Below are positions 8,543-35,063 of a stretch of 64,000 nucleotides of DNA, in pieces. How positions within the stretch are numbered: position 1 is the stretch's first letter; the number at the start of each line of letters is the position of its first letter. Made by a program: the position numbers and the translations under genes. The DNA comes from Egibacteraceae bacterium. Its GTDB lineage: Bacteria > Actinomycetota > Nitriliruptoria > Euzebyales > Egibacteraceae. Location of the stretch: the NCBI GenBank assembly GCA_030446745.1, contig JAUJMS010000002.1, positions 1 through 64,000 on the forward strand, written 5' to 3'. The notes beneath the pieces are model-generated. The model saw only the letters and a list, made by a program, of their open reading frames with translations. It made no database searches and was not told where the DNA came from.

Positions 8543-9250
8543 ATGGACTCGAGCATCGCGCGACAGCTACCCGTCCTGCGGTCGCTCGACGACGACGCCC
8601 GCCGGCGCATCTACCAGGTGCTGCGCGATGCCGGGCGGCCGCTGACCCGCCGGGAGGTCGCCGCCGCGGCCGACCTCCCGCTGCGGTTGACGACCTTCCA
8701 CCTCGAGCGTCTCCTGGACGCCGGGCTCCTCACGAGCGCCTACGCCCGTCCACCCGGGCGCTCGGGTCCCGGCGCCGGCCGCAGCGCCAAGTACTACGAG
8801 CCCGCTGCGGTCGAGCTCGAGGTCTCGATTCCGCAACGCCGCTACGCGTTGGTCGGCAGCCTGCTCGTCGACGCGCTGAGCGCGGCGCAGCGCGGCGAAG
8901 CTGCCTACGACGCCGCGTTGCGCGTCGCCCGCAACCGCGGGCAGGCGATCGCCCGGCAGGCGGCGACCATCCCACGTCGCGGGCGTGCCGGTGAGCGGCA
9001 GCTGCCCGCCTCGCTGGCGGCGGTGTTGCGGCGGCTCGGCTACGAGCCGTACGAGCCAGCCGCGGGGACGGTGGCCTTGCGCAACTGCCCCTTCAACACA
9101 CTCGCCGAGCAGGCGCCGGACCTCGTGTGCGCGCTGAACCGCACCTTCCTGCAGGGAGTGCTCGAAGGACTCGGCGACCCCAACGGGAAGGCGCTGCTGG
9201 CCAGCTGCCGCCCCGGCGACTGCTGCGTCGTCCTGCAACCTGCTTCGTGA
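8543..9250 (+). CDS. Winged-HTH transcriptional regulator with Cys-rich C-terminus
   Basis: A 235-aa regulator with an ArsR-like winged helix at about 15-75 (RRIYQVLRDAGRPLTRREVAAA, then FHLERLLDAGLL). The C-terminal region carries NCPFNTLAEQAPDLVCALN at about 180-198 and ASCRPGDCCVVL at the end. That gives five cysteines arranged as in SufR-like regulators, which use such residues to hold an Fe-S cluster or metal. A GGAGG site sits five bases before the ATG. The next gene is a DUF2231 membrane protein, and the two are probably co-transcribed. The family is known in actinobacteria, but ligand and targets are not, and cluster binding is inference. Confidence 0.8.
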   Translation: MDSSIARQLPVLRSLDDDARRRIYQVLRDAGRPLTRREVAAAADLPLRLTTFHLERLLDAGLLTSAYARPPGRSGPGAGRSAKYYEPAAVELEVSIPQRRYALVGSLLVDALSAAQRGEAAYDAALRVARNRGQAIARQAATIPRRGRAGERQLPASLAAVLRRLGYEPYEPAAGTVALRNCPFNTLAEQAPDLVCALNRTFLQGVLEGLGDPNGKALLASCRPGDCCVVLQPAS

Positions 9251-9272
9251 ACCCACCCGCAAAGGAGATGGC

Positions 9273-9860
9273 ATGCCCCGGTTGTTCTCCATCGCTCCGG
9301 CGATCAGCATCAAAGGCCGCAAGTTCAAGGGACTGCGCGGCTTCGCCGGCAAGCCGGCCCACCCGCCGCTGACGGACATCCCCGTCGCGGCCTACGTGTT
9401 CGCGATGGCGTTCGACGCGGTCTCGTTCTTCGCCGGCAGCGACTCCGGCATCGCGCGCGACGCGTACGTTGCTGGGACGTGGGCGATCATCGCGGGCGCC
9501 ATCGTCTCCGTGCCGACCGCGCTCACCGGTTTCTGGGACTGGCTGAAGTCCACCCCGCGCGGCACGCAGGCGTGGCGCACCGCCAACTGGCACATGGCCG
9601 TGATGCTCACGGTGACCGCCATCGTCGTCGTCGACATCGTGCTGCGCCTCGGCAGCGCCGACGCGGCCGTCGTGCCAGGCAGCGTGCTGATCCTGTCGGT
9701 CCTCGCCGGCTCGCTGGTGATGTACGGCTCCGCCTACGGCGGGGCGCTGGTCTACGACTACGGCTTCAACGTCGAGACCTCCGGTGACCACCCCGTCTGG
9801 CACCCGTCCACCCACGACGTCGGTCCCGGCGAGCACGCCTTCCCCGCCGAGGAGCAGTAG
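9273..9860 (+). CDS. DUF2231-family membrane protein
   Basis: A 195-aa polytopic membrane protein with four hydrophobic segments, in the DUF2231 style: PAHPPLTDIPVAAYVFAMAFD near residue 28, then ALTGFWDWLKS and YGGALVYDYGFNVE. DUF2231 proteins are often found beside or fused to electron-transfer modules such as Rieske domains; a second DUF2231, fused to Rieske, occurs at 17389 in this window. An AAGGAGAT site precedes the ATG. It starts 22 bp after the Cys-rich regulator, which may control it. Function unknown. Confidence 0.82.
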   Translation: MPRLFSIAPAISIKGRKFKGLRGFAGKPAHPPLTDIPVAAYVFAMAFDAVSFFAGSDSGIARDAYVAGTWAIIAGAIVSVPTALTGFWDWLKSTPRGTQAWRTANWHMAVMLTVTAIVVVDIVLRLGSADAAVVPGSVLILSVLAGSLVMYGSAYGGALVYDYGFNVETSGDHPVWHPSTHDVGPGEHAFPAEEQ

Positions 9861-17388: not shown

Positions 17389-18240
17389 ATGTCTGTCCTG
17401 CACAACCTCGTGGAGTGGATCGGCCGTCGGACCGTGCTCGACGCGGTGGCGGACCGCAGCGAGTCGATCGTGCGCCCCGCACTGCGCGCGCGCCCAGTCA
17501 CCAATGCGCTCAACGGCACCTGGTTGGGTCATCCCCTGCACCCGCTGCTCGTCGTCGCGCCGATCGGCACCTGGGCCAGCGCTGGACTGCTCGACCTCAT
17601 TGGCGGCGAGGAGGCCGAGCCCTCCGCCGACGCGCTCGTCGTGGCCGGCGTCGTCTCGGCGCTGCCGACCGCTGCGGCCGGCTACGTCCAGTGGGTCGAC
17701 ACCTACGGCGAAGGCCGCCGCGTCGGCATCGTCCACGCCATCACGAACATCGCGGCGCTCGCGCTGCAGGTCGCGTCGATCCGCGATCGCCGCGCCGGCC
17801 GGCGTGGTCGCGGGCGCGCGCTGTCCTACACCGCCCTCGGTGCGGTCGCCGCCGGCGGCTACCTCGGCGGCCACCTGTCCTACGTCTACGGCGTCGGCGT
17901 CGACCACACCGCCTTCACCAGCGGCCCAGACGACTGGACCGCGACCGGCGTCGCCCCGTCGGACGTCGTCGAGGGGCGCGCCACTGCGACGGTCGCGGGA
18001 GATCGGCAAGTGCTGCTGACCCGGCACGGGGGGCGCCTGGTCGCACTCGACGCGGTGTGCACCCACGCCGGCGGGCCGCTGCCCGACGGCGAGCTGGCCG
18101 ACGGCTGCGTGCGCTGCCCGTGGCACGGCAGCGTCTTCCGTCTCGACGACGGCACGGTTGTCGAGGGCCCGGCGACCGCGCCCCAGCCGCGGCTCGAGGT
18201 GCGCGCCCTTGCCGACGTCGTCGAGGTCCGCGCCGTGTGA
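17389..18240 (+). CDS. DUF2231-Rieske [2Fe-2S] fusion protein
   Basis: A 283-aa fusion. Residues 1-170 are a DUF2231 four-helix membrane domain (GHPLHPLLVVAPIGTWASAGLLD, then TAAAGYVQWVDTYGEGRRVG). Residues 185-283 form a Rieske domain with both cluster-binding motifs, CTHAGGPL and CPWHGSVF, i.e. Cys-x-His and Cys-x2-His, in the NirD/ferredoxin-like short form. It is a membrane-tethered electron carrier; its partner is unknown. The standalone DUF2231 at 9273 shows the same module unfused. The carboxylase gene follows 19 bp downstream in the same direction. Confidence 0.87.
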   Translation: MSVLHNLVEWIGRRTVLDAVADRSESIVRPALRARPVTNALNGTWLGHPLHPLLVVAPIGTWASAGLLDLIGGEEAEPSADALVVAGVVSALPTAAAGYVQWVDTYGEGRRVGIVHAITNIAALALQVASIRDRRAGRRGRGRALSYTALGAVAAGGYLGGHLSYVYGVGVDHTAFTSGPDDWTATGVAPSDVVEGRATATVAGDRQVLLTRHGGRLVALDAVCTHAGGPLPDGELADGCVRCPWHGSVFRLDDGTVVEGPATAPQPRLEVRALADVVEVRAV

Positions 18241-24592: not shown

Positions 24593-25240
24593 TCAGTCGG
24601 CGGCGATCGGCGCGAAGCGGTCGACGCGGGGTTGCTCGCACAGCTCGGCCACGGCGGCGTAGACGGTGTCGGTGAACGCCCGCCGCGACCGCGGCTGCAT
24701 GGACGGTGCGGCGACGACCGCACCGAAGCGCACGGCGAGCACGCCGGCGGCCGGTCGCCGCAGCGACGGTCGGGTACCGCGCGGCCACACCTGCGCGGTG
24801 CCGACCAGGCCGACGGGGACGCACGGCACCGCGGCGGCGGCGGCGATGCGGGCCAGCCCGCTGCGGAACCGGTACAGCGCCCCGTCGGGCGAGCGCGTCC
24901 CCTCGGGGAAGATCCCGACGACGGCGCCCTCGCGCAGCAGCGCGACGACGGCGTCGAGCGCGCGGGCGTCGCCGGTCCCGCGGGCGACCGGGATCATGCC
25001 CATCGCCTGGTTGAAGCGGCCGAAGACCCCGACGGCGAGCTCTTGCTTGCCGACGAACCACGTCGGCCGGGGCGACGCCGCGTTCAGCAGAAAGTGGTCG
25101 AGGAAGGAGCGGTGGTTCGCGGCGAGCAGCACCCCGCCGGCGCCGGGCACGTTGCCCCGGCCGGTGACCTCGGCGCGCAGCCGGCGCAGCACCGGAGGAC
25201 CGACCCAGCGGTGGGCGAAGCGCAGTCCGTCGTCGTGCAC
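24593..25240 (-). CDS. PlsC-like 1-acyl-sn-glycerol-3-phosphate acyltransferase
   Basis: Membrane-associated acyltransferase, 215 aa from the GTG five bases after the fabG stop. It has the catalytic NHRSFLDHF (H-x4-D) near residue 45, [18 protein letters not shown], and the acceptor-site [15 protein letters not shown] near residue 115. Family members move an acyl chain from ACP or CoA onto lysophosphatidate or glycerol phosphate. Position at the end of a fab-type operon suggests that it uses the chain made by the preceding enzymes (inference). No membrane anchor is obvious beyond a hydrophobic core segment. Confidence 0.85.
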
Positions 25241-25245
25241 GGGGG

Positions 25246-25968
<723 letters not shown>

Positions 25969-25972
<4 letters not shown>

Positions 25973-26870
25973 CCGGCGCCCAGGTCGTCCGGCGTGGACA
26001 CGGCGCGCCGCGTGAGGCTGCGGTCGATGCGCTTGACCAGACCGTTGAGGACGGGCGTGGCGCCGAGCTCGACGACGGTGTCCGCACCCAGCTGCGCGAG
26101 CGTCGCGACGCTCTCGCGCCACCGCACCGGCGCGGTCAGCTGCGCTGGACAGCAGTCGCGGCCACGCGGCCGCGTCGTCGTGCGGTTGCGCGTCGACGTT
26201 GGCGACGACGGGCACGGCCGCGGGCGCGAAGCTGGCTGCCGCCAGCGCGTCGCCGAACGGCGCGACCGCCGCCGCCATGTGCGGGCTGGTACGCCGCGCC
26301 GACGTCGAGCGCGACGACCTTGCCGCGCCCCTCCGCGGCGAGCCGCTGCGCGAGGTCCTCCAGCGCCGCGGCGGTGCCCGCCGCGACGACCTGGCCTGGG
26401 GCGTTGTCGTTGGCGACGTGCGCTCCGGCGGCGGCGCACGCGGCGCGCACGGCGTCGACGTCGTAGCCGAGGCAGGCGACCATCGTCCCGGGCGCCGCGT
26501 CGGCCGCCTCTGCGTCCGCGCTGGCGCGGGCGTCGACCAGCCGCAGCGCGTCCGCGAACCCGAGGACCCCGGCGGCGACCAGGGCGTCGTACTCGCCGAG
26601 GGAGTGGCCGGCGACGGCGACGGGCTCGTCACCGCCCGCGGCGCGCCAGCCGTCGAGCAGCACGACGTGGTGGACGAACAGCGCCACCTGACAGGTGCGC
26701 GGCTCGCGCAGCTCGTCGGCGTCCGCGTCGACGCCCAGGCGGCTCACGTCGCGGTCGAGCAGCTCGTCGGCCTGCGCCCAGCGCCCGAAGCCGGCCGTGT
26801 CGCGCCACGGCAGCGCCATCCCCGGCACCTGGCTGCCCTGACCCGGGAACACGAGCGCGGTTGCGGTCAC
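25969..26870 (-). CDS. fabD: Malonyl-CoA:ACP transacylase FabD (two apparent frameshifts)
   Basis: Loads malonyl units onto ACP. The N-terminal frame starts at a GTG overlapping the ACP stop and has LVFPGQGSQVPGMA and the nucleophile elbow GHSLGEYDALVAAG near residue 90. It continues to VALDVGAAY. There the frame changes (near 26287) to HMAAAVAPFGDALAAASF and PVVANVDAQPHDD. It changes again near 26155 to APVRWRESVATLAQLGADTVVELG and NGLVKRIDRSL, the normal FabD ending. At the first break the SPHM motif expected after AY is short by about two bases. The protein would be about 300 aa if read through. Confidence 0.85.
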
Positions 26871-27166
26871 GCCTCGTCCGACAGGGTCAGCGGCGGCAGC
26901 GACGGCACGCCCGCCGCGATCGCGGTGTCGACCACACGCTGGAGGTCGCCGACGGTGCGGACCTGCGCCGGGTCGTCGGGCTCGATGCGCACGCCGAGGC
27001 GCTCGAGCGCCACCTGCAGCTCGACGACGGACAGCGAGTCCAGCTGCAGGTCGCGTTCCAGCTCGGCGTCGGGGCGCAGGTCGGCTGCAGGGATGCCGAA
27101 CAGGTCGTGCAGCGCCGCGGCGAGCCGCGGGTCGATGGCCGGCGCGTCGCCCGGTCCGTGGGTCAT
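26867..27166 (-). CDS. Acyl carrier protein
   Basis: A 99-aa carrier protein. The 4'-phosphopantetheine serine is in LQLDSLSVVELQVALE near residue 44. An unusual N-terminal extension (about residues 1-14) and a longer C-terminal tail make it larger than a housekeeping AcpP of about 80 aa, so it is probably dedicated to this operon. The ATG overlaps the ligase stop as ATGA and its own stop overlaps the fabD start. It should receive an activated acyl group from the upstream ligase and malonyl from FabD (inference). Confidence 0.9.
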   Translation of the reverse strand: MTHGPGDAPAIDPRLAAALHDLFGIPAADLRPDAELERDLQLDSLSVVELQVALERLGVRIEPDDPAQVRTVGDLQRVVDTAIAAGVPSLPPLTLSDEA

Positions 27167-28746
27167 GGGTGCTCGGTCCTCAGTCGCCGCTTGTCGATCT
27201 TGCCGGTCGGGTTGCGCGGGAGCGCGTCGAGACGGACGATCCGCCGCGGAACGGCGTGGACACCGATGGCGGCGCCGACGCGCCGGCGCAGCTCGCCCGC
27301 GTCGAGGGAGGCGCCGGGGGCGAGCACCACCGCCGCGGCCACCGCCTCGCCGCCGAGCCCGTCGGGCACGCCGTACACCGCGGCCTCGACGACCTCGGGA
27401 GCGGTGGAGAGTACCTGCTCGACCTCGACGCTGAACACGTTGGTGCCGCCCCGCAGGATGACGTCTTTCAGGCGGTCGAGGATGCGCACGCTGCCGTCGG
27501 CGTCGACGGCACCGATGTCGCCCGTGGACAGCCAGCCGTCGCGCACCACCGTTGCCGACAGCGCCGGGTCGTCGAAGTAGCCGGGCGTGACGTTCGCGCC
27601 GCGGACCTGCAGCTCGCCGGCGCGTCCGGCGGGCTGCACGCCCCCGGTCGCGTCGAGCACTCGCACGTCGACGCCGGCGACGGGGCGCCCCACCGTGCCG
27701 GCGGGCAGCGCGGCGCCGGGCGTCAAGCGCACCGCCGTCGCAGGTCCGTGGGTCTCGGACAGGCCCCACACGTCGTAGAGCACGACGTCGGGAAACCGCT
27801 GGTGCAGGCGCGCGGCGGTCTCCGCCGGCATCGGCGCGCCACCGTAGATCAGCGTCCGCCAGTGCGGCGGCGGCGGGCCGGCCGGCGCGTCGCGTACGAG
27901 CAGACCGAGCCACGCGGGAACGGCGTCGAGGTGGGTGACCGCGTGCCGTGCGAGCAACGCCGGCGCCGCGACGGGGCGCGGGTCGGCCGCGACGATGCTG
28001 CAGCCACCGACCAGCGGCATCGTCGTGGTCTGCGCCGACAGCGGGCCGATGTAGTACAGCGGCAGCACCACCAGCGTCCGCTCGTCGTCGCCGAGACCGA
28101 GCAGGTCCACGTACGCCAGCGCTGCGTGGATCAGCCCACGGCTCGTGACCGTCGTCATCTTCGGCACGCCGGTCGTACCGGACGTGGCGATGAGCGCGAG
28201 CGCGGCGTCCTCGCCGGCCCCCGTGTCGACGCCGGACCGGTCACCGCCCGACAGCGGCAGCGCGGCGTCCGCCGGCACGACGGCGCGGTCGCCGGCCGCC
28301 TGCGCCAAGCGGTCACGATGCGCAGTGTCGGCGACGAGCAGCGCCGGCCGCGCGCGCGACAGTTGACCGGCCCACTGCGCCGGCGACAGCGTCGTGTTCA
28401 GCAGCAGCGCCGTCACCCCGGCACGGCTGCACGCGAACGGCACGACGAACAGCGGCAGGTCGTGCCCGAGCGCGACGGCGACCCGGTCGCCGGCGGCGGC
28501 ACCCGCCCCGAGAAGGCCGGCCGCCGCCGCGTCGACGGCACGGTCGAGCTCGGCGTAGGTCAGGGTCGCCGCAGGGGCAACGACGGCCGCACGGTCTGGC
28601 CAGCGCGCGGCGGCGCCGCGCAGCAGCGCGTCGAGCGTGCGCGGCCGGTTGGCGAAGCCGCGCACCGTCGTCGCGAGGTACGGCTCGTCGACCAGCGGCC
28701 CGTAACGCGCGGCGGCGGCGCGAAGCGCTGGGATGGTGCCGGTCAT
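27163..28746 (-). CDS. AMP-dependent acyl-activating ligase (acyl-CoA/acyl-ACP synthetase)
   Basis: An adenylate-forming enzyme of 527 aa. P-loop LIATSGTTGVPKMTTV near residue 190; YGGAPMP and YDVWGLSETHG at about 310-345; hinge motif STGDIGAVDADGSVRILDRLKD; GGTNVFSVEVEQVL; and the C-terminal catalytic lysine in NPTGKIDKRRL. It belongs to the class that activates fatty or aryl acids. Being coupled by ATGA overlaps to fabF before it and to ACP after it, it may start chain building by loading a free acid onto the ACP, as FAAL-type enzymes do. No FAAL-specific insertion can be confirmed by eye, so CoA ligation is equally possible. Confidence 0.88.
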   Translation of the reverse strand: MTGTIPALRAAAARYGPLVDEPYLATTVRGFANRPRTLDALLRGAAARWPDRAAVVAPAATLTYAELDRAVDAAAAGLLGAGAAAGDRVAVALGHDLPLFVVPFACSRAGVTALLLNTTLSPAQWAGQLSRARPALLVADTAHRDRLAQAAGDRAVVPADAALPLSGGDRSGVDTGAGEDAALALIATSGTTGVPKMTTVTSRGLIHAALAYVDLLGLGDDERTLVVLPLYYIGPLSAQTTTMPLVGGCSIVAADPRPVAAPALLARHAVTHLDAVPAWLGLLVRDAPAGPPPPHWRTLIYGGAPMPAETAARLHQRFPDVVLYDVWGLSETHGPATAVRLTPGAALPAGTVGRPVAGVDVRVLDATGGVQPAGRAGELQVRGANVTPGYFDDPALSATVVRDGWLSTGDIGAVDADGSVRILDRLKDVILRGGTNVFSVEVEQVLSTAPEVVEAAVYGVPDGLGGEAVAAAVVLAPGASLDAGELRRRVGAAIGVHAVPRRIVRLDALPRNPTGKIDKRRLRTEHP

Positions 28747-30035
28747 ACCGCCCGGAACGCGAGCACCGCGTTGTGCCCGCCGAAGCCGAACGAGTTCGAG
28801 ACCGCCGCGCCGATCGCGACCTTGCGTGGGTCGCCGGTGACGACGTCGAGGTCACAGGCGGGATCCTGCTGCTCGAGGTTCAGGCTCGCGGGAACCAGCC
28901 CGTCCACCATCGCCAGCACCGTCGCGACGGCCTCGACGCCCCCCGCGGCCCCGAGCAGGTGGCCGATCGCCGACTTGGTCGACGTCGCCGCGATCTCGTC
29001 GGCGCGGGCGCCGAAGACCTCCCGAACCGCGGCCGCCTCCGCCGCGTCGTTCGGCGGCGTCGAGGTTCCGTGCGCGTTGACGTGGTCGACGTCGTCGCGG
29101 CTGATCTCGGCGTCGGCCAACGCCAGGCGCAGCGCCCGCGCCGCCCCGGTCCCGCCCGGTGCGGGCTGCGTCGGGTGGTGCGCGTCGTTGCTGATGCCGT
29201 AGCCGGCGAGCTCGACGAGCGCCTGCGCGCCGCGGGCGGCGGCGTGCTCGGCGCGTTCGACGACGAGCACGCCAGCCCCCTCGCCGGTGACGAACCCGTC
29301 GCGGTCGACGTCGAACGGTCGGCTTGCGCGCGCCGGATCGTCGTTGCGCCGGCTCAACGCGCCGGCGGCCGCGAACGCGGCGATGGTCAGCGGATTGATG
29401 GCGGCCTCGGCGCCGCCGGCGACGACCACGTCGGCGCGGCCGGCCCTGATGAGATCGAGCGCCGCGCCGATCGCGTCGCCGGCCGACGCGCACGCGGACA
29501 CGACCGAGTACGACGGGCCACGCAGCCCGTGGCGAATCGCGACCTGCCCGCCGCCCATGTTCAGCGGCATCGCGATCGACAGGTAGGGCCGGACGCGGTC
29601 GGGGCCGTCGCGCAGGAGGCGTTGATGCTGGACGGTCAACTCGGTGATGCCGCCGACGCCCGACGCGATGCACGTACCGATGCGTTCGGCATCCAGGCCT
29701 TCCACCAGCGGCAAGTGCGTCGCCGCGGCCGGATCGGTGGCAGGGGCGGGGTCGACGAGCCCAGCCTGGGTCAGCGCCTCGTGCGCCGCCACGACCGCGT
29801 ACTGGGCGAACGGGTCGAGCTGGCGCACGAGCTTGCGCGGGAGGTGTGTGAACGGGTCGAAGCCGCGGACCTCGCACGCGATCCGCACCGCGTGGTGCGT
29901 CGCGTCGAAGCGCGTGATGGGTCCGGCCGTCGCACGGCCTGCGAGCAGCCCGTCCCACAGCGCCGCCGTGCCGACCCCGTACGGGGTGACCGCGCCGAGG
30001 CCGGTGACGACGACGCGGGGGAAGCGATTGGGCAT
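28743..30035 (-). CDS. fabF: 3-oxoacyl-ACP synthase II (FabF-type ketosynthase)
   Basis: Condensing enzyme of 430 aa with the Cys-His-His set: nucleophile in VVSACASAGDAIGAAL near residue 187, VNAHGTSTPPNDAAE near 325 and KSAIGHLLGAAGGVEA near 360. It ends NSFGFGGHNAVLAF, the standard FabF tail. It extends acyl-ACP by two carbons with malonyl-ACP. As first gene of the operon it lies behind a perfect 26-bp palindrome at 30081-30106. The alternating sequence features favour fatty acid type II synthesis over type II polyketide KSalpha, and no chain-length factor partner is present. Confidence 0.93.
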   Translation of the reverse strand: MPNRFPRVVVTGLGAVTPYGVGTAALWDGLLAGRATAGPITRFDATHHAVRIACEVRGFDPFTHLPRKLVRQLDPFAQYAVVAAHEALTQAGLVDPAPATDPAAATHLPLVEGLDAERIGTCIASGVGGITELTVQHQRLLRDGPDRVRPYLSIAMPLNMGGGQVAIRHGLRGPSYSVVSACASAGDAIGAALDLIRAGRADVVVAGGAEAAINPLTIAAFAAAGALSRRNDDPARASRPFDVDRDGFVTGEGAGVLVVERAEHAAARGAQALVELAGYGISNDAHHPTQPAPGGTGAARALRLALADAEISRDDVDHVNAHGTSTPPNDAAEAAAVREVFGARADEIAATSTKSAIGHLLGAAGGVEAVATVLAMVDGLVPASLNLEQQDPACDLDVVTGDPRKVAIGAAVSNSFGFGGHNAVLAFRAV

Positions 30036-30080
30036 GCAGGCCTCGTACTCTTGGGCGACGGCGGCGATGCTAACCGTCTC

Positions 30081-30106
30081 GTCGTTTCAACGCCCGTTGA
30101 AACGAC
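30081..30106. promoter_or_regulatory. Perfect 26-bp palindromic operator between divergent fabF and ABC genes
   Basis: GTCGTTTCAACG-CC-CGTTGAAACGAC, with perfect 12-bp arms. It sits 45 bp from the fabF start and 18 bp from the ABC ATPase start, in the only shared promoter space. It is AT-richer than its surroundings. Arms of this length and a short spacer are typical of TetR-type operators; no regulator gene is adjacent. Confidence 0.75.
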
Positions 30107-30124
30107 CGTGCCCGAGGAGCCACC

Positions 30125-31036
30125 GTGGAACCCGCGATCGCGGTGGACGGACTGGTCAAGCGCTACCGCGGCCGGACGGTCGTCGACGGGCTGTCGCTGA
30201 CGGTCGCCGCCGGGACGGTGCTCGCGCTGGTCGGGCCCAACGGCGCCGGCAAGACGACCACGGTCGAGTGCGTCGAGGGGTTCCGCGTACCCGACGCCGG
30301 CCGCGTGCGGGTCCTCGGATGCGACCCGCGGCGCGACCGTGACGCCGTCGTCGCTCGCATGGGCGTGATGCTGCAGGAGGGCGGTGCGTACCAGGCCGCG
30401 TCGCCGCGCGAGATGGTGCGCCTGTACGCCAGCTTCCACATCGCCCCGGCCGACCCCGACGACCTGCTCGAGCGGCTCGGCCTGGCCGCCGTCGCCACGG
30501 CGCGCTACCGCACGCTGTCCGGTGGGCAGAAGCAGCGGCTCAACCTGGCGCTCGCGCTGGTCGGCCGGCCCGAGGTCGCCATCCTCGACGAGCCGACCGC
30601 CGGCATGGACCCGCAGGTCCGCCGCGACACCTGGCGCCTGCTGGACGGGCTGCGCGACGACGGCGCGACGGTGCTGCTGACGACCCACGCGATGGACGAG
30701 GCCGAGCACCTCGCCGACCGTGTGGCCGTCATCGACGCCGGCCGGCTCGTTGCCGCGGGTACACCGGCTGAGCTCGCCGCCGCTGCCGGCGGCGCGGTCG
30801 TCGTGGTCACCACCCCCGCCCGTGTCGACGCGGCCGCCCTCGCGGCGGCCGTCGGCGCGCCGGTCGAGCAGGCCGGTACCGGTCGGCTGGTGGTCCGGAC
30901 CGGCGCCGCGGCGATCCCGCGCGTCACCGCGTTCTTCGCCGACCACGGCTTGCCGCTGCACGGCGTCAGCGCCGGCGCGCTGAGTCTCGAGGACGCCTAC
31001 CTGCGGCTGCTGGACCGCAACCGGGGCCCGGCGTGA
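30125..31036 (+). CDS. ABC exporter ATP-binding subunit
   Basis: ATPase of an ABC-2 type exporter, 303 aa. Walker A GPNGAGKTTTVECVEG near residue 38, Q loop, signature LSGGQKQRLNLALALVG near 135, Walker B VAILDEPTAGMDPQ and switch His in LTTHAMDEAEHLADR. The C-terminal 80 residues form the extension common to drug/lipid exporter ATPases of the DrrA/CcmA type. A GAGGAG site precedes the GTG. The permease gene is coupled by GTGA overlap. In actinobacteria an ABC pair like this is commonly found beside ctaA/ctaB, as here, so a link to heme or respiratory biogenesis is possible. The shared palindrome instead links it to the lipid operon. Confidence 0.92.
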   Translation: MEPAIAVDGLVKRYRGRTVVDGLSLTVAAGTVLALVGPNGAGKTTTVECVEGFRVPDAGRVRVLGCDPRRDRDAVVARMGVMLQEGGAYQAASPREMVRLYASFHIAPADPDDLLERLGLAAVATARYRTLSGGQKQRLNLALALVGRPEVAILDEPTAGMDPQVRRDTWRLLDGLRDDGATVLLTTHAMDEAEHLADRVAVIDAGRLVAAGTPAELAAAAGGAVVVVTTPARVDAAALAAAVGAPVEQAGTGRLVVRTGAAAIPRVTAFFADHGLPLHGVSAGALSLEDAYLRLLDRNRGPA

Positions 31037-31779
31037 CCGGGGGGGTGCCGGCGCGCCGGCGGGTCGCCGCCCAGGCCGGTCTCGAGCTGCGGCTGCTCGT
31101 CCGCAACGGCGAGAACCTCCTCGTCACCGTCGGCATCCCGGTCGGGCTGCTCGTGTTCTTCTCGCTCGTGCCGGTCCTGCCGCTACCGGGGCGCCCCGTC
31201 GACTTTCTGGTTCCTGGGGTGCTCGCGCTGGCGGTCATGAGCTCGGGCATGGTGTCGCTGGCGATCGCGACGGCGTTCGAGCGGTCGTACCTGGTGCTCA
31301 AGCGGCTCGGGGCGACGCCGCTGCGCCGCCGTGAGCTCGTCGCCGCAAAGATCGCCGCGGTGCTCGCCGTGCAGCTCGCCCAGACCGGGCTGATCGTCGC
31401 CGTGGCGTTCGCACTCGGCTGGCGTCCGCAGCCAGGGGTCGTCGGCACCGCCGTCGCCGCCGGCGGTCTGCTGCTCGGCAGCGCCGGCTTCTGCGGCGTG
31501 GGGCTCGCGCTGGCGGGGCGGCTGCGCGCGCTGGCGACGCTCGCGCTGGCCAACGGGCTGTTCGTGGCGCTGCTGCTCGTCAGCGGCATCGTCGTCCCGC
31601 TCGACGCGCTGCCGGGTTGGCTCGCTGCGGTGGCCGGGGTGCTGCCGGCGGCGCCGCTGGCGACGCTGCTGCGGGCCGCGCTGGGCGCGGGCGTGGTGGC
31701 GGCCGGCCCGCTGGCGATCCTCGCCGGCTGGGCGGTCGCCGCACCGCTGGTCGCGGCGGCGGTCTTCCGCTGGGAGTGA
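31033..31779 (+). CDS. ABC-2 type exporter permease
   Basis: Integral membrane subunit of 248 aa with six hydrophobic segments: VTVGIPVGLLVFFSLVPVL, VPGVLALAVMSSGMVSLAIA, a segment around residue 115, GLLLGSAGFCGVGLALAG and two more near the end. The region AFERSYLVLKRLGATPLRRRELVAAK between helices 2 and 3 is typical of ABC2_membrane exporters. It starts at a GTG overlapping the ATPase stop. It converges on ctaB with only seven bases between the stops and no obvious terminator. Confidence 0.9.
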   Translation: MTGGVPARRRVAAQAGLELRLLVRNGENLLVTVGIPVGLLVFFSLVPVLPLPGRPVDFLVPGVLALAVMSSGMVSLAIATAFERSYLVLKRLGATPLRRRELVAAKIAAVLAVQLAQTGLIVAVAFALGWRPQPGVVGTAVAAGGLLLGSAGFCGVGLALAGRLRALATLALANGLFVALLLVSGIVVPLDALPGWLAAVAGVLPAAPLATLLRAALGAGVVAAGPLAILAGWAVAAPLVAAAVFRWE

Positions 31780-31786
31780 CCCGCGG

Positions 31787-32692
31787 TCAGACGACCAGGC
31801 CGCCGACGACCGCGTCGACCGCCATCGCGGCGAACAGCAGCCCGAGGTAGGTGATCGAGTAACGGAACAGCCGCATCGCGACCCGCTCGCTGGCGTCGCG
31901 CACCAACCGCCACGCGAGGTAGACGAACCAGCCGCCGAGCAGCGACGCCGCCGTCAGGTACAGCGCACCCATCCCGCCGATGGGTCCGAACATCAGCGTC
32001 ACCGCGACGAGCAGCACGCTGTAGAGCAGGATCTGGCGCGCGGTCTCGGCGATGCCCCGCACCGCCGGCAGCATCGGCACGCCGGCGCGCGCGTAGTCCT
32101 CGCGGTACTTCACGGCGAGCGCCCAGAAGTGCGGCGGCGTCCAGGCGAACACGATCGCGAACAGCACGAGCGCCGGCAGCCCGACGGTGTTGGTGACCGC
32201 CGCCCAGCCGACGAGGACCGGCACGCAGCCGGCCGCCCCGCCGATGACGATGTTCTGGGTCGACCGGCGCTTCAGGCCCATCGTGTAGACGAAGACGTAG
32301 AACAGGATCGCGCCGGACGCGAGGACCGCGGACAGCACGTTGACGAGCGCAGCCAGCCATGCGAACGCGACCACGCCGAGCACCAGCCCGAATCGCAGTG
32401 CGGCCTCGGGGGCGACGGTCGCCGCCACCAGCGGGCGGCGCGCGGTGCGGTCCATCACCTCGTCGATGTCGCGGTCGAGGTAGTTGTTGATCGCGTTGGC
32501 GCTCGCGGCGGCGAGCGAGCCGCCGACGAGGGTGGCGAGGACCAGCCGCAGCGGCGGCAGCCCGCGCTGGGCGACGACCATCGTCGGCACCGTCGTCACG
32601 AGCAGCAGCTCGATGATGCGCGGCTTCGTCAGGCCGACGTAGGCCCGGACGGTGTCGCGCCAGGTGCGGTCGGCGACCGCAGCGGTGGTCAT
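31787..32692 (-). CDS. ctaB: Protoheme IX farnesyltransferase (heme O synthase)
   Basis: UbiA-family membrane prenyltransferase, 301 aa, that adds a farnesyl group to heme B, giving heme O for cytochrome oxidase. It has [20 protein letters not shown] at the N-terminus and the first Asp-rich motif in [23 protein letters not shown] (N-x3-D-x2-D-x3-D) near residue 65. The second motif region is [26 protein letters not shown] near residue 175. About nine transmembrane helices. Its ATG overlaps the ctaA stop as ATGA. Confidence 0.95.
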
Positions 32693-33714
32693 CGGGCGGG
32701 CACCGCCTCAGGCGCCGCGGCGACGGGGGCGGCCGCCGACGCGGGCGTGGCCGGCAGGCGTGCGGCCAGCGCGGCCGTCGCGACGAGCGCCGCCCACAGC
32801 CAGCTCGCGACCGCGAGATGCGGGATGACCGTGACGAACGACAGCCGGCTCGCGAGGTTCGCGACGCCGAGCACGATCTGGACGCCGACGAGCGCCGCGG
32901 CCAGCCGCGGCAGCCGCAGCAGCCAGCCGCGCGCCCCGCCGCGGCGCGCTTCGATGACCAGCGCGGCGACGGCGACGACGAGCGCGGCGGCGAGCAGCCG
33001 GTGCGCGACGTTGAACGCGGTCTGGGGCGTGTCGACCGGCGCCACGCTGAACACGCCGAGGTACGGGGCGCGCCCGACGAACGCGAGCCCAGCGCCGATC
33101 CCGGTGACGTGGCCGCCGACGAGAATCTGCACCAGGGTCAGTCCCGCGACGGCCGCCGCGGTGCGCGCGAGCCGTCGGCACCCCGCGTCGATCGGCTGAG
33201 TCCGCGGCGGCAACGTCGCGCGGACCGCCACGACGACGAGGCAGCCGACGACGAGCATCCCCATGCCCAGGTGCGCGGTGACGAGCTCAGCGCGCAGCAG
33301 TTCCAGCACGACGAGCGCGCCGAGCGCCGCCTGCGCCAGCACCGCGACGGCGGCGACCGCCACCGGCCACACGAGGTCGCGCCGGTCGCGGTGGCGCACC
33401 AGCACCCACACGAGCTGCGCGGCGATGAGCAGCGCCACGACCCCGGCGAGCAACCGGTGGCTGTGCTCCAGCCACACGTTGAGCTGCAGCGGGGGCACGA
33501 AGTCGCCAGCGGCGAAGCAGCCCGGCCACGTCGGGCACGCGAGCCCCGAATCGGTCGCGCGGACGGCGCCGCCCACGGTCACGAGCAGCAGTGCGACCGC
33601 CGTCGTGACGACCGCGAGCCACGCGAAAGCGGACGGGCGACGGACGCGTTCGGGCACGACGACCTCGGCTCGCGGGACGACAGCGGGGCCGGCACGGCGG
33701 GGCGCCGCCCACAC
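32689..33714 (-). CDS. ctaA: Heme A synthase (COX15/CtaA family)
   Basis: Oxidises heme O to heme A in the membrane. Eight helices with the paired heme His sites: [25 protein letters not shown], then [16 protein letters not shown] and [11 protein letters not shown]. The loop [13 protein letters not shown] carries the conserved Cys pair near residue 50. The start is uncertain. I use the GTG at 33714 (341 aa, family length); an ATG at 33750 would add 12 residues, and a TACACT element that could be a -10 box lies between them. It is followed by ctaB with ATGA coupling. Confidence 0.9.
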
Positions 33715-33845
33715 GTGCTGGCGGGGCCAGTGTAGTGGCCCTTGCGGCATCCTCGACGCCGCCGGCGGCGGGTGGTGCGGCGCCGGCGGGCGCCCCGGCG
33801 GCCGGCGGTTCGACGCCCCGGCCGGCAACCGCGACGATGCGGCGC

Positions 33846-35063
33846 ATGACGACGACCGCCGCGCCCGTCCTGGACCTCGACGCCGTCCGCGCACGGTTTC
33901 CGGCGCTGGCGCAGACCGTCGTCGACGGTGCGGACGGCGAGGTGCCGGTCGTCCACGCCGACGCCCCCGGCGGCACCCAGGTGACCGCCGGGGTCATCGC
34001 CGCGATGACCGCCTACCTGCAGACGATGAACGCCAACAGCCACGGCTGCTTTCCCGCGTCGACCGCGACCGACGCGCTCGTCGAGGCGGTGCGCCGCAAG
34101 GTCGCCGCGTTCGTCGGCGGACAACCGGAGGGGGTGGTGTTCGGCGCGAACATGACGACGCTGACGTGGCACCTCTCACACGCGCTCGACACGCGCGTCG
34201 GCCCCGGCGACGAGCTGCTGTGCACCCGGCTGGACCACGACGCCAACGTCAGTCCCTGGTTGGCGCTGGCCGAGCGCACCGGCGCCACCGTTCGCTGGGT
34301 GGCGCTCGACCCCGTGACCGGGCGGCTGGACCTCGACACCATCGACGTCTCGGACCGCACGCGCCTGGTCGCGTTCCCCGCCGCGTCCAACGCGCTCGGC
34401 ACCGTGGTGGACCCCGCCCCGTTCGTCGCCGCGGCACGGTCGGTCGGGGCGCTGACGTTCTGCGACGCCGTCCACGCCGCCCCGCACGTGCCGCTGGACC
34501 GGGCCGCCGCCGACGTCGACCTGCTCGCCTGCTCGCCGTACAAGTTCTTCGGCCCGCACGCCGGCGTGCTGTCCGCCGACCCGGACCTGCTCGCCGAGCT
34601 GCGCCCCGACAAGGTCCGTCCCGCGCCGGACATCGGCCCCGACCGCTGGCAGACCGGCACCGCGGCGTTCGAGGCGATCGCCGGCGTCGGCGCGGCGCTC
34701 GACCACCTCGCCGAGTTCGGCATGGAGGCAGTCGTCGCGCACGAGCGCACGCTGACCCGCCGGTTCCTCGCCGGCGTGGCGCAGCTCGACCATGTCACGT
34801 TGCACGGCCCCGCGGAGGAGCACGGCCGCACCCCGACCTTCGCGGTCACCGTCCGCGGCCACGCCCCCGACGAGGTCGCCCGCGCGCTGGCGGCGCGCGG
34901 CGTGTGGGTGTGGTCGGGCGACTACTACGCGGTCGAGCCGATGCGCGCCCTCGGTCTCGCCGACGGCGGCGGGGCGGTGCGGATCGGCTTCGTCCACTAC
35001 CACCGCCTCGAGGACGTCGACCGCGTCCTCGCCCTGCTCGCCGACCTCGACCGGGGCGCGTGA
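33846..35063 (+). CDS. Class V aminotransferase fold, cysteine desulfurase-like (VC1184 type)
   Basis: PLP enzyme of 405 aa. NSHGCFPASTATDALVEAVRRKVAAF lies near residue 60. The PLP-binding Asp-x2-His is in FCDAVHAAPHVPLD and the Schiff-base Lys in CSPYKFFGPHAGVL near residue 235. Near the C-terminus, where SufS and IscS carry the catalytic cysteine, the sequence is WSGDYYAVEPMRALGL with no Cys. This tail and HYHRLEDVDR match the TIGR01976 subgroup of unknown reaction rather than true desulfurases. An alternative ATG is at 33837. NfuA lies 1.4 kb downstream, so an Fe-S link is tempting but unproven. Confidence 0.85.
   Translation: MTTTAAPVLDLDAVRARFPALAQTVVDGADGEVPVVHADAPGGTQVTAGVIAAMTAYLQTMNANSHGCFPASTATDALVEAVRRKVAAFVGGQPEGVVFGANMTTLTWHLSHALDTRVGPGDELLCTRLDHDANVSPWLALAERTGATVRWVALDPVTGRLDLDTIDVSDRTRLVAFPAASNALGTVVDPAPFVAAARSVGALTFCDAVHAAPHVPLDRAAADVDLLACSPYKFFGPHAGVLSADPDLLAELRPDKVRPAPDIGPDRWQTGTAAFEAIAGVGAALDHLAEFGMEAVVAHERTLTRRFLAGVAQLDHVTLHGPAEEHGRTPTFAVTVRGHAPDEVARALAARGVWVWSGDYYAVEPMRALGLADGGGAVRIGFVHYHRLEDVDRVLALLADLDRGA

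Follow-up and report, generated by a model that had tools for sequence, protein, structure and literature searches.

What does a perfect palindrome do between a lipid-synthesis operon and an ABC exporter transcribed away from it, and which protein, if any, would read it? The question is raised by positions 30081-30106 of the window (the whole 64-kb stretch of DNA analysed here), which read directly as a perfect 26-bp palindrome, GTCGTTTCAACG-CC-CGTTGAAACGAC, with 12-bp arms and a 2-bp spacer (12-2-12). It lies in the 89 bp (30036-30124) that separate two divergent ORFs, 28743-30035 (minus strand) and 30125-31036 (plus strand), and its sequence, layout and coordinates are exactly those given in an earlier note on this DNA. 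Judged from the sequence, the palindrome is probably (at roughly 70%) a genuine operator for a dimeric helix-turn-helix (HTH) repressor encoded elsewhere. The features of the region are as follows.

24593-25312, minus strand: plsC-like acyltransferase, last in the operon (PF01553); ORF as listed, the true start being further in
25246-25869, minus strand: fabG (3-oxoacyl-ACP reductase), frame broken mid-gene (PF13561, PF00106; reading frames)
26136-26870, minus strand: fabD (malonyl-CoA:ACP transacylase), 3' part frameshifted (PF00698; reading frames)
26867-27166, minus strand: acyl carrier protein, ACP (PF00550; reading frame)
27163-28746, minus strand: AMP-binding acyl-CoA/acyl-ACP ligase (PF00501, PF13193)
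28743-30035, minus strand: fabF, beta-ketoacyl-ACP synthase II (TIGR03150, 528 bits, cut-off 493.75; Pfam)
30044-30049, plus strand: possible exporter -10, CGTACT (suggested by YRTACT / TANNCT recurring in orthologous gaps)
30067-30072, minus strand: possible fabF-operon -10, TAGCAT (suggested by GATGSTARCC recurring in orthologous gaps)
30081-30106, no strand: proposed operator, perfect palindrome GTCGTTTCAACG-CC-CGTTGAAACGAC (sequence; unique in the genome; degenerate orthologous copies)
30083-30104, no strand: 22-bp core CGTTTCAACGCCCGTTGAAACG, whose degenerate form is common to genomes G016 (CGCTTCAACGTCCGTCAAACCG) and G004 (CGATTCGATGGCCTTTGAACCG)
30114-30119, plus strand: probable RBS of the exporter ATPase, GAGGAG (seen in the sequence)
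30125-31036, plus strand: ABC exporter ATPase, DrrA-like (PF00005; TIGR01188 below cut-off)
31033-31779, plus strand: ABC-2 permease, DrrB-like (PF01061; TIGR00025 below cut-off)
31787-32692, minus strand: ctaB, heme O synthase (UbiA family), convergent neighbour (PF01040)
32689-33894, minus strand: ctaA/COX15, heme A synthase (PF02628)

Left of the gap, the lipid-synthesis operon runs in the order fabF, acyl-CoA ligase, ACP, fabD, fabG and plsC, with the acyl-CoA/acyl-ACP ligase placed between fabF and the ACP gene; right of it stand the DrrA/DrrB-type exporter pair and then the convergent ctaB and ctaA. Among the flanks examined, a divergent AMP-binding ligase adjoining the exporter is found elsewhere only in G028. 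Both fabD and fabG (25246-26870, minus strand) are split into several frames while the flanking genes are intact, which may reflect either assembly errors or gene decay in this genome.

An order-2 Markov model of the window predicts about 0.8 perfect palindromes with 12-bp arms (spacer 0-10) per 64 kb, so that the chance of one falling in the 89-bp gap is about 1 in 1000; apart from 30081-30106, the window has no perfect palindrome whose arms reach 12 bp. The description "far beyond chance" in the earlier note thus has to be qualified. Chance palindromes with 12-bp arms should, moreover, be mostly G+C, while the core of this one is A+T-rich in DNA of 74% G+C, which suggests that it is rarer than the figure of about 1 in 1000. 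For the 20-mer core with up to 3 mismatches, 0.01 occurrences are expected in the window, and the core is single-copy in the 2.71-Mb, 85%-complete genome, even when up to 3 mismatches are allowed; shortening or relaxing the core pattern gave background matches only. Being unique in the genome, the palindrome is not a dispersed repeat, which the earlier note had named as a finding that would tell against its reading, and a mobile element is ruled out likewise. The genome scan for the arms that the same note had proposed as a route to a regulon and an autoregulated regulator gene gave a single site and no such gene. In a collection of bacterial and archaeal species, the exact core has 12 scattered matches in unrelated phyla, several of which precede T-runs (terminator-like, as in Caballeronia and Domibacillus) or fall inside ORFs.

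Conservation is uneven. The palindrome is absent from most orthologous fab/exporter gaps, including those of same-family genomes, and a degenerate, still symmetric site is kept in the orthologous gap of two other genera, G016 and G004. In the gap of G016 (exporter ATPase about 70% identical), CGCTTCAACGTCCGTCAAACCG agrees at 16 of 20 core positions, a score reached by 1 in 20,000 shuffled versions of that gap, and lies 16 bp before the exporter start; in the gap of G004, from a third genus, CGATTCGATGGCCTTTGAACCG agrees at 15 of 20. A lack of conservation in related operons, which the earlier note took as grounds for rejection, is accordingly what most relatives display, but not G016 and G004. 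A second and near-perfect G016 copy, ACGTTTCAACGACGGTTGAAACGT, is found at L053:9050 (G016:C36:36049-36070), in the gap that separates gltB (glutamate synthase) from a divergently transcribed NMT1-type ABC transporter gene. The only regulator near that second site is a MarR-family gene, at a distance of about 5.5 kb. Core matches of at least 14/20 in 284 kb of related DNA comprise the G016 and G004 gaps, one 14/20 match in a coding region and the L053 copy; the present site was set aside, and the 284 kb were counted as not chosen for the motif, although L053 was actually fetched for its site.

The present core and the G016 and G004 sites share the frame CGNTT-N12-AANCG, and the half-sites of these and of the L053 copy all fit CGNTT..., the outer bases being kept on both sides, a pattern to be expected if a dimer makes contact with each half-site. 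A relaxed symmetric pattern occurs at 7 places in 66 genomes of the class versus 0 for the reversed control, namely 3 fab/exporter gaps, 1 gltB/NMT1 gap (G016) and 3 apparently incidental places; since the pattern was built from those four sites, these counts show rarity and not independent discovery.

The palindrome would act as a DNA operator for a dimeric HTH repressor encoded elsewhere. A dimer occupying 30083-30104 would overlie both the fabF -35 region and the leader of the exporter mRNA, keeping the fabF operon and the exporter repressed until a ligand releases it. We infer where the promoters lie, that the regulator represses instead of activating, and that it acts on both sides; a sigma-70 consensus scan of the gap found nothing, including at the possible fabF -10. 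The distance from the site to the exporter start is 20 bp here, 16 bp in G016 and about 57 bp in G004, compared with 47, 122 and about 110 bp to fabF, and on these distances the exporter may be the older target. The claim of the earlier note that the site ties the exporter to the lipid genes rather than to the heme genes is not supported, these distances being one reason. Across the family and order, many relatives have the fab genes divergent from the exporter, several of them with ctaB behind it, and most relatives with the exporter between the fab genes and ctaB are without the palindrome. Since the exporter has both neighbours by descent, synteny joins it to both, and the palindrome cannot assign it to either.

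The proposal of an operator with an unlinked regulator has gained support from a two-fold-symmetric site that lies in the promoter region of a divergent gap, is single-copy in the genome and has degenerate copies in two genera. Against it stand the many orthologous gaps without the site, the same family included, the failure to find a regulator gene with the site in its own promoter, and the presence of one site only in an 85%-complete genome. No regulator adjoining the palindrome was found among the ORFs scanned, as the earlier note had said; the closest that could be recognised are the ArsR-like HTH gene at 8543-9250 and, at 42 kb, a TetR gene. As to its family, the regulator is most plausibly of the ArsR/SmtB type, at somewhat less than even odds, followed closely by TetR and then by another HTH family.

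Several other explanations have to be weighed against a DNA operator. That the palindrome arose by chance, or is a recent local sequence without function, would agree with the 0.8 or so expected per 64 kb and with the many relatives that are without it, but is unlikely given its placement in the 89-bp divergent gap (about 0.001), the degenerate yet symmetric copies in the gaps of G016 and G004, and the near-perfect copy in another divergent gap. Alternatively, the exporter leader would fold at the palindrome, 8 nt ahead of GAGGAG, into a hairpin of 11 bp (-19.5 kcal/mol), which might affect the stability or translation of the exporter mRNA. The z-score of this hairpin is only -1.76, however, and G016 and G004 preserve the sequence frame without the pairing, so that the element most likely acts as DNA; a role as RNA leader thus appears very improbable. 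A terminator is ruled out, none being found at the palindrome and no T-run following it. There is also little to commend the SufR-like or ArsR-like winged-helix protein encoded at 8543-9250 as the binder. It has an ArsR-type HTH_20 domain and several C-terminal cysteines, and the SufR sites of cyanobacteria and Streptomyces, CAAC-N6-GTTG, are close to the CAAC-N4-GTTG found here (PMC8593673, PMC11995493), but the spacing of N4 instead of N6 disfavours a SufR site, the gene lies 21 kb from the palindrome, its own promoter offers no match better than 11/20, and the protein matches only a generic metalloregulator model, below cut-off. This gene precedes one for a DUF2231 membrane protein (window 8543-9860), and 8 kb away, at 17389-18240, lies the gene of another DUF2231 protein, this one fused to a Rieske domain.

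The operator of a TetR-family repressor, possibly responsive to acyl-CoA, is a more serious candidate, albeit a doubtful one. Actinobacteria have TetR-family regulators of fatty-acid synthesis, FasR among them, a TetR_N search found five TetR genes in this genome, two of them FasR-related, and the Saccharopolyspora TetR SACE_5754 protects GTTATTCAACATGCGTTGAAAACT (as core, TTCAACATGCGTTGAAA) and leaves its own gene unregulated (PMC6346578). The FasR-like protein (L045), conserved across the family and order, has M. tuberculosis FasR as its best solved match (E = 2.7e-37) and scores 163 bits with the NCBIfam FasR model, below the cut-off of 330. A palindrome close to GTTACYNNNNRGTAAC stands beside the start codon in 11 of the 16 promoters of its orthologues (L090-L105, near 1430-1530, oriented) and is likely to be the autoregulatory operator of this FasR-like family. 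It differs from the present site and is absent from the fab/exporter gap, where GTTACYNNNNRGTAAC scores only 8/12 at best, short of a FasR operator; having its own distinct operator-like palindrome, the FasR-like protein is disfavoured as the binder. The promoter of L049 holds a different double palindrome, two TACCTTGAC..GTCAAGGTA-like palindromes ahead of the TetR gene (L049:1389-1442), which likely form an autoregulatory double operator. Nothing similar to 30081-30106 was found in the promoters of L046, L047 and L048 or in those of the orthologues fetched, so that these other TetR genes offer no matching promoter site, and orthologues of the FasR-like protein and of L048 are also present where the fab/exporter gap is without the site. 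L047 (G000:C55:72275-73867) is the second, more distant FasR-related TetR, and its convergent neighbour reads by eye as an acyl-ACP desaturase. That 0 of 5 TetR genes have the palindrome in their own promoter does not by itself exclude the family, since autoregulation is not universal. The label "TetR-like" in the earlier note is nevertheless not established: a similar core is bound by the Saccharopolyspora TetR, but 12-2-12 fits ArsR/SmtB equally, the same core lies upstream of arsR-arsP in this class, and none of the five TetR promoters has a similar site.

The documented layout of ArsR/SmtB operators is a 12-2-12 inverted repeat, and the repressor of at least one such site is encoded far away from it (PMC8790569); the palindrome at 30081-30106 has this very architecture. 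In three genomes of the same class, the core TTCAAC-N4-GTTGAA or a near variant lies directly upstream of an ArsR-family gene leading into an ArsP permease gene at L064, L069 and L070. The related cores, TTCAACCATGGTTGAA, TTCCAACCATGGTTGGAA and TTTCAACCACGGTTGAAT, have outer flanks that differ from those of the present site, and such palindromes likely represent a conserved ArsR operator in same-class genomes. L067 (at 943) has the same palindrome near an ArsP gene, the only one of the two genes seen there. A search of the 218-kb contig that carries the present site gave no ArsP-linked ArsR gene, which sets aside a binder of that type encoded there; only the divergent HTH_20 protein at 8543-9250 was found. 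The specific proposal that an ArsR/SmtB-type sensor (of metal, metalloid, thiol or redox state) co-regulates the type II fatty-acid-synthesis operon and the DrrAB-type exporter beside the heme A synthesis genes is a speculative one, with the odds well against it. If it were true, such recruitment would mean that membrane-lipid production and export answer chemical stress in an uncultured actinobacterial family.

An operator is an ordinary element of a known kind, here with a lineage-specific distribution, and it leaves the general understanding of gene regulation unchanged. If real, it would be an orphan operator whose regulator could be sought by a simple pull-down, it would form a lineage-specific switch on basic fatty-acid synthesis, and it would offer a first clue to the function of the uncharacterised DrrAB-like exporter that adjoins the heme A synthesis genes.

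Among known systems, FasR of Mycobacterium and Corynebacterium offers the parallel of lipid-synthesis genes under a dedicated regulator, and a FasR-like protein is encoded here, but its orthologues carry the different operator-like palindrome GTTACYNNNNRGTAAC, and the crystal oligonucleotide of M. tuberculosis FasR (PMC7382501) does not resemble the present site. SufR operators share the CAAC/GTTG inverted repeat, yet with a spacing of 6 as against 4, and no suf genes are found at the present site. The SACE_5754 operator of Saccharopolyspora erythraea is closer, with a core TTCAAC(A)-N2-(C/T)GTTGAA of 2-bp spacing and a regulator that controls distant genes and not itself, the latter being a feature of SACE_5754; the likeness is one of site sequence, and the outer CGTT/AACG flanks and the target genes differ. 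ArsR operators known to date tend to be imperfect, and many are rich in A+T, which counts against the ArsR/SmtB reading. Unlike ArsR/SmtB operators, the palindrome described here has perfect arms, no adjacent arsR, and fatty-acid-synthesis and exporter genes instead of metal-resistance genes as its presumed targets. It resembles them in the lengths of its arms and spacer, in a TTCAAC-N4-GTTGAA core like that upstream of arsR-arsP, and in its position over a promoter or leader.
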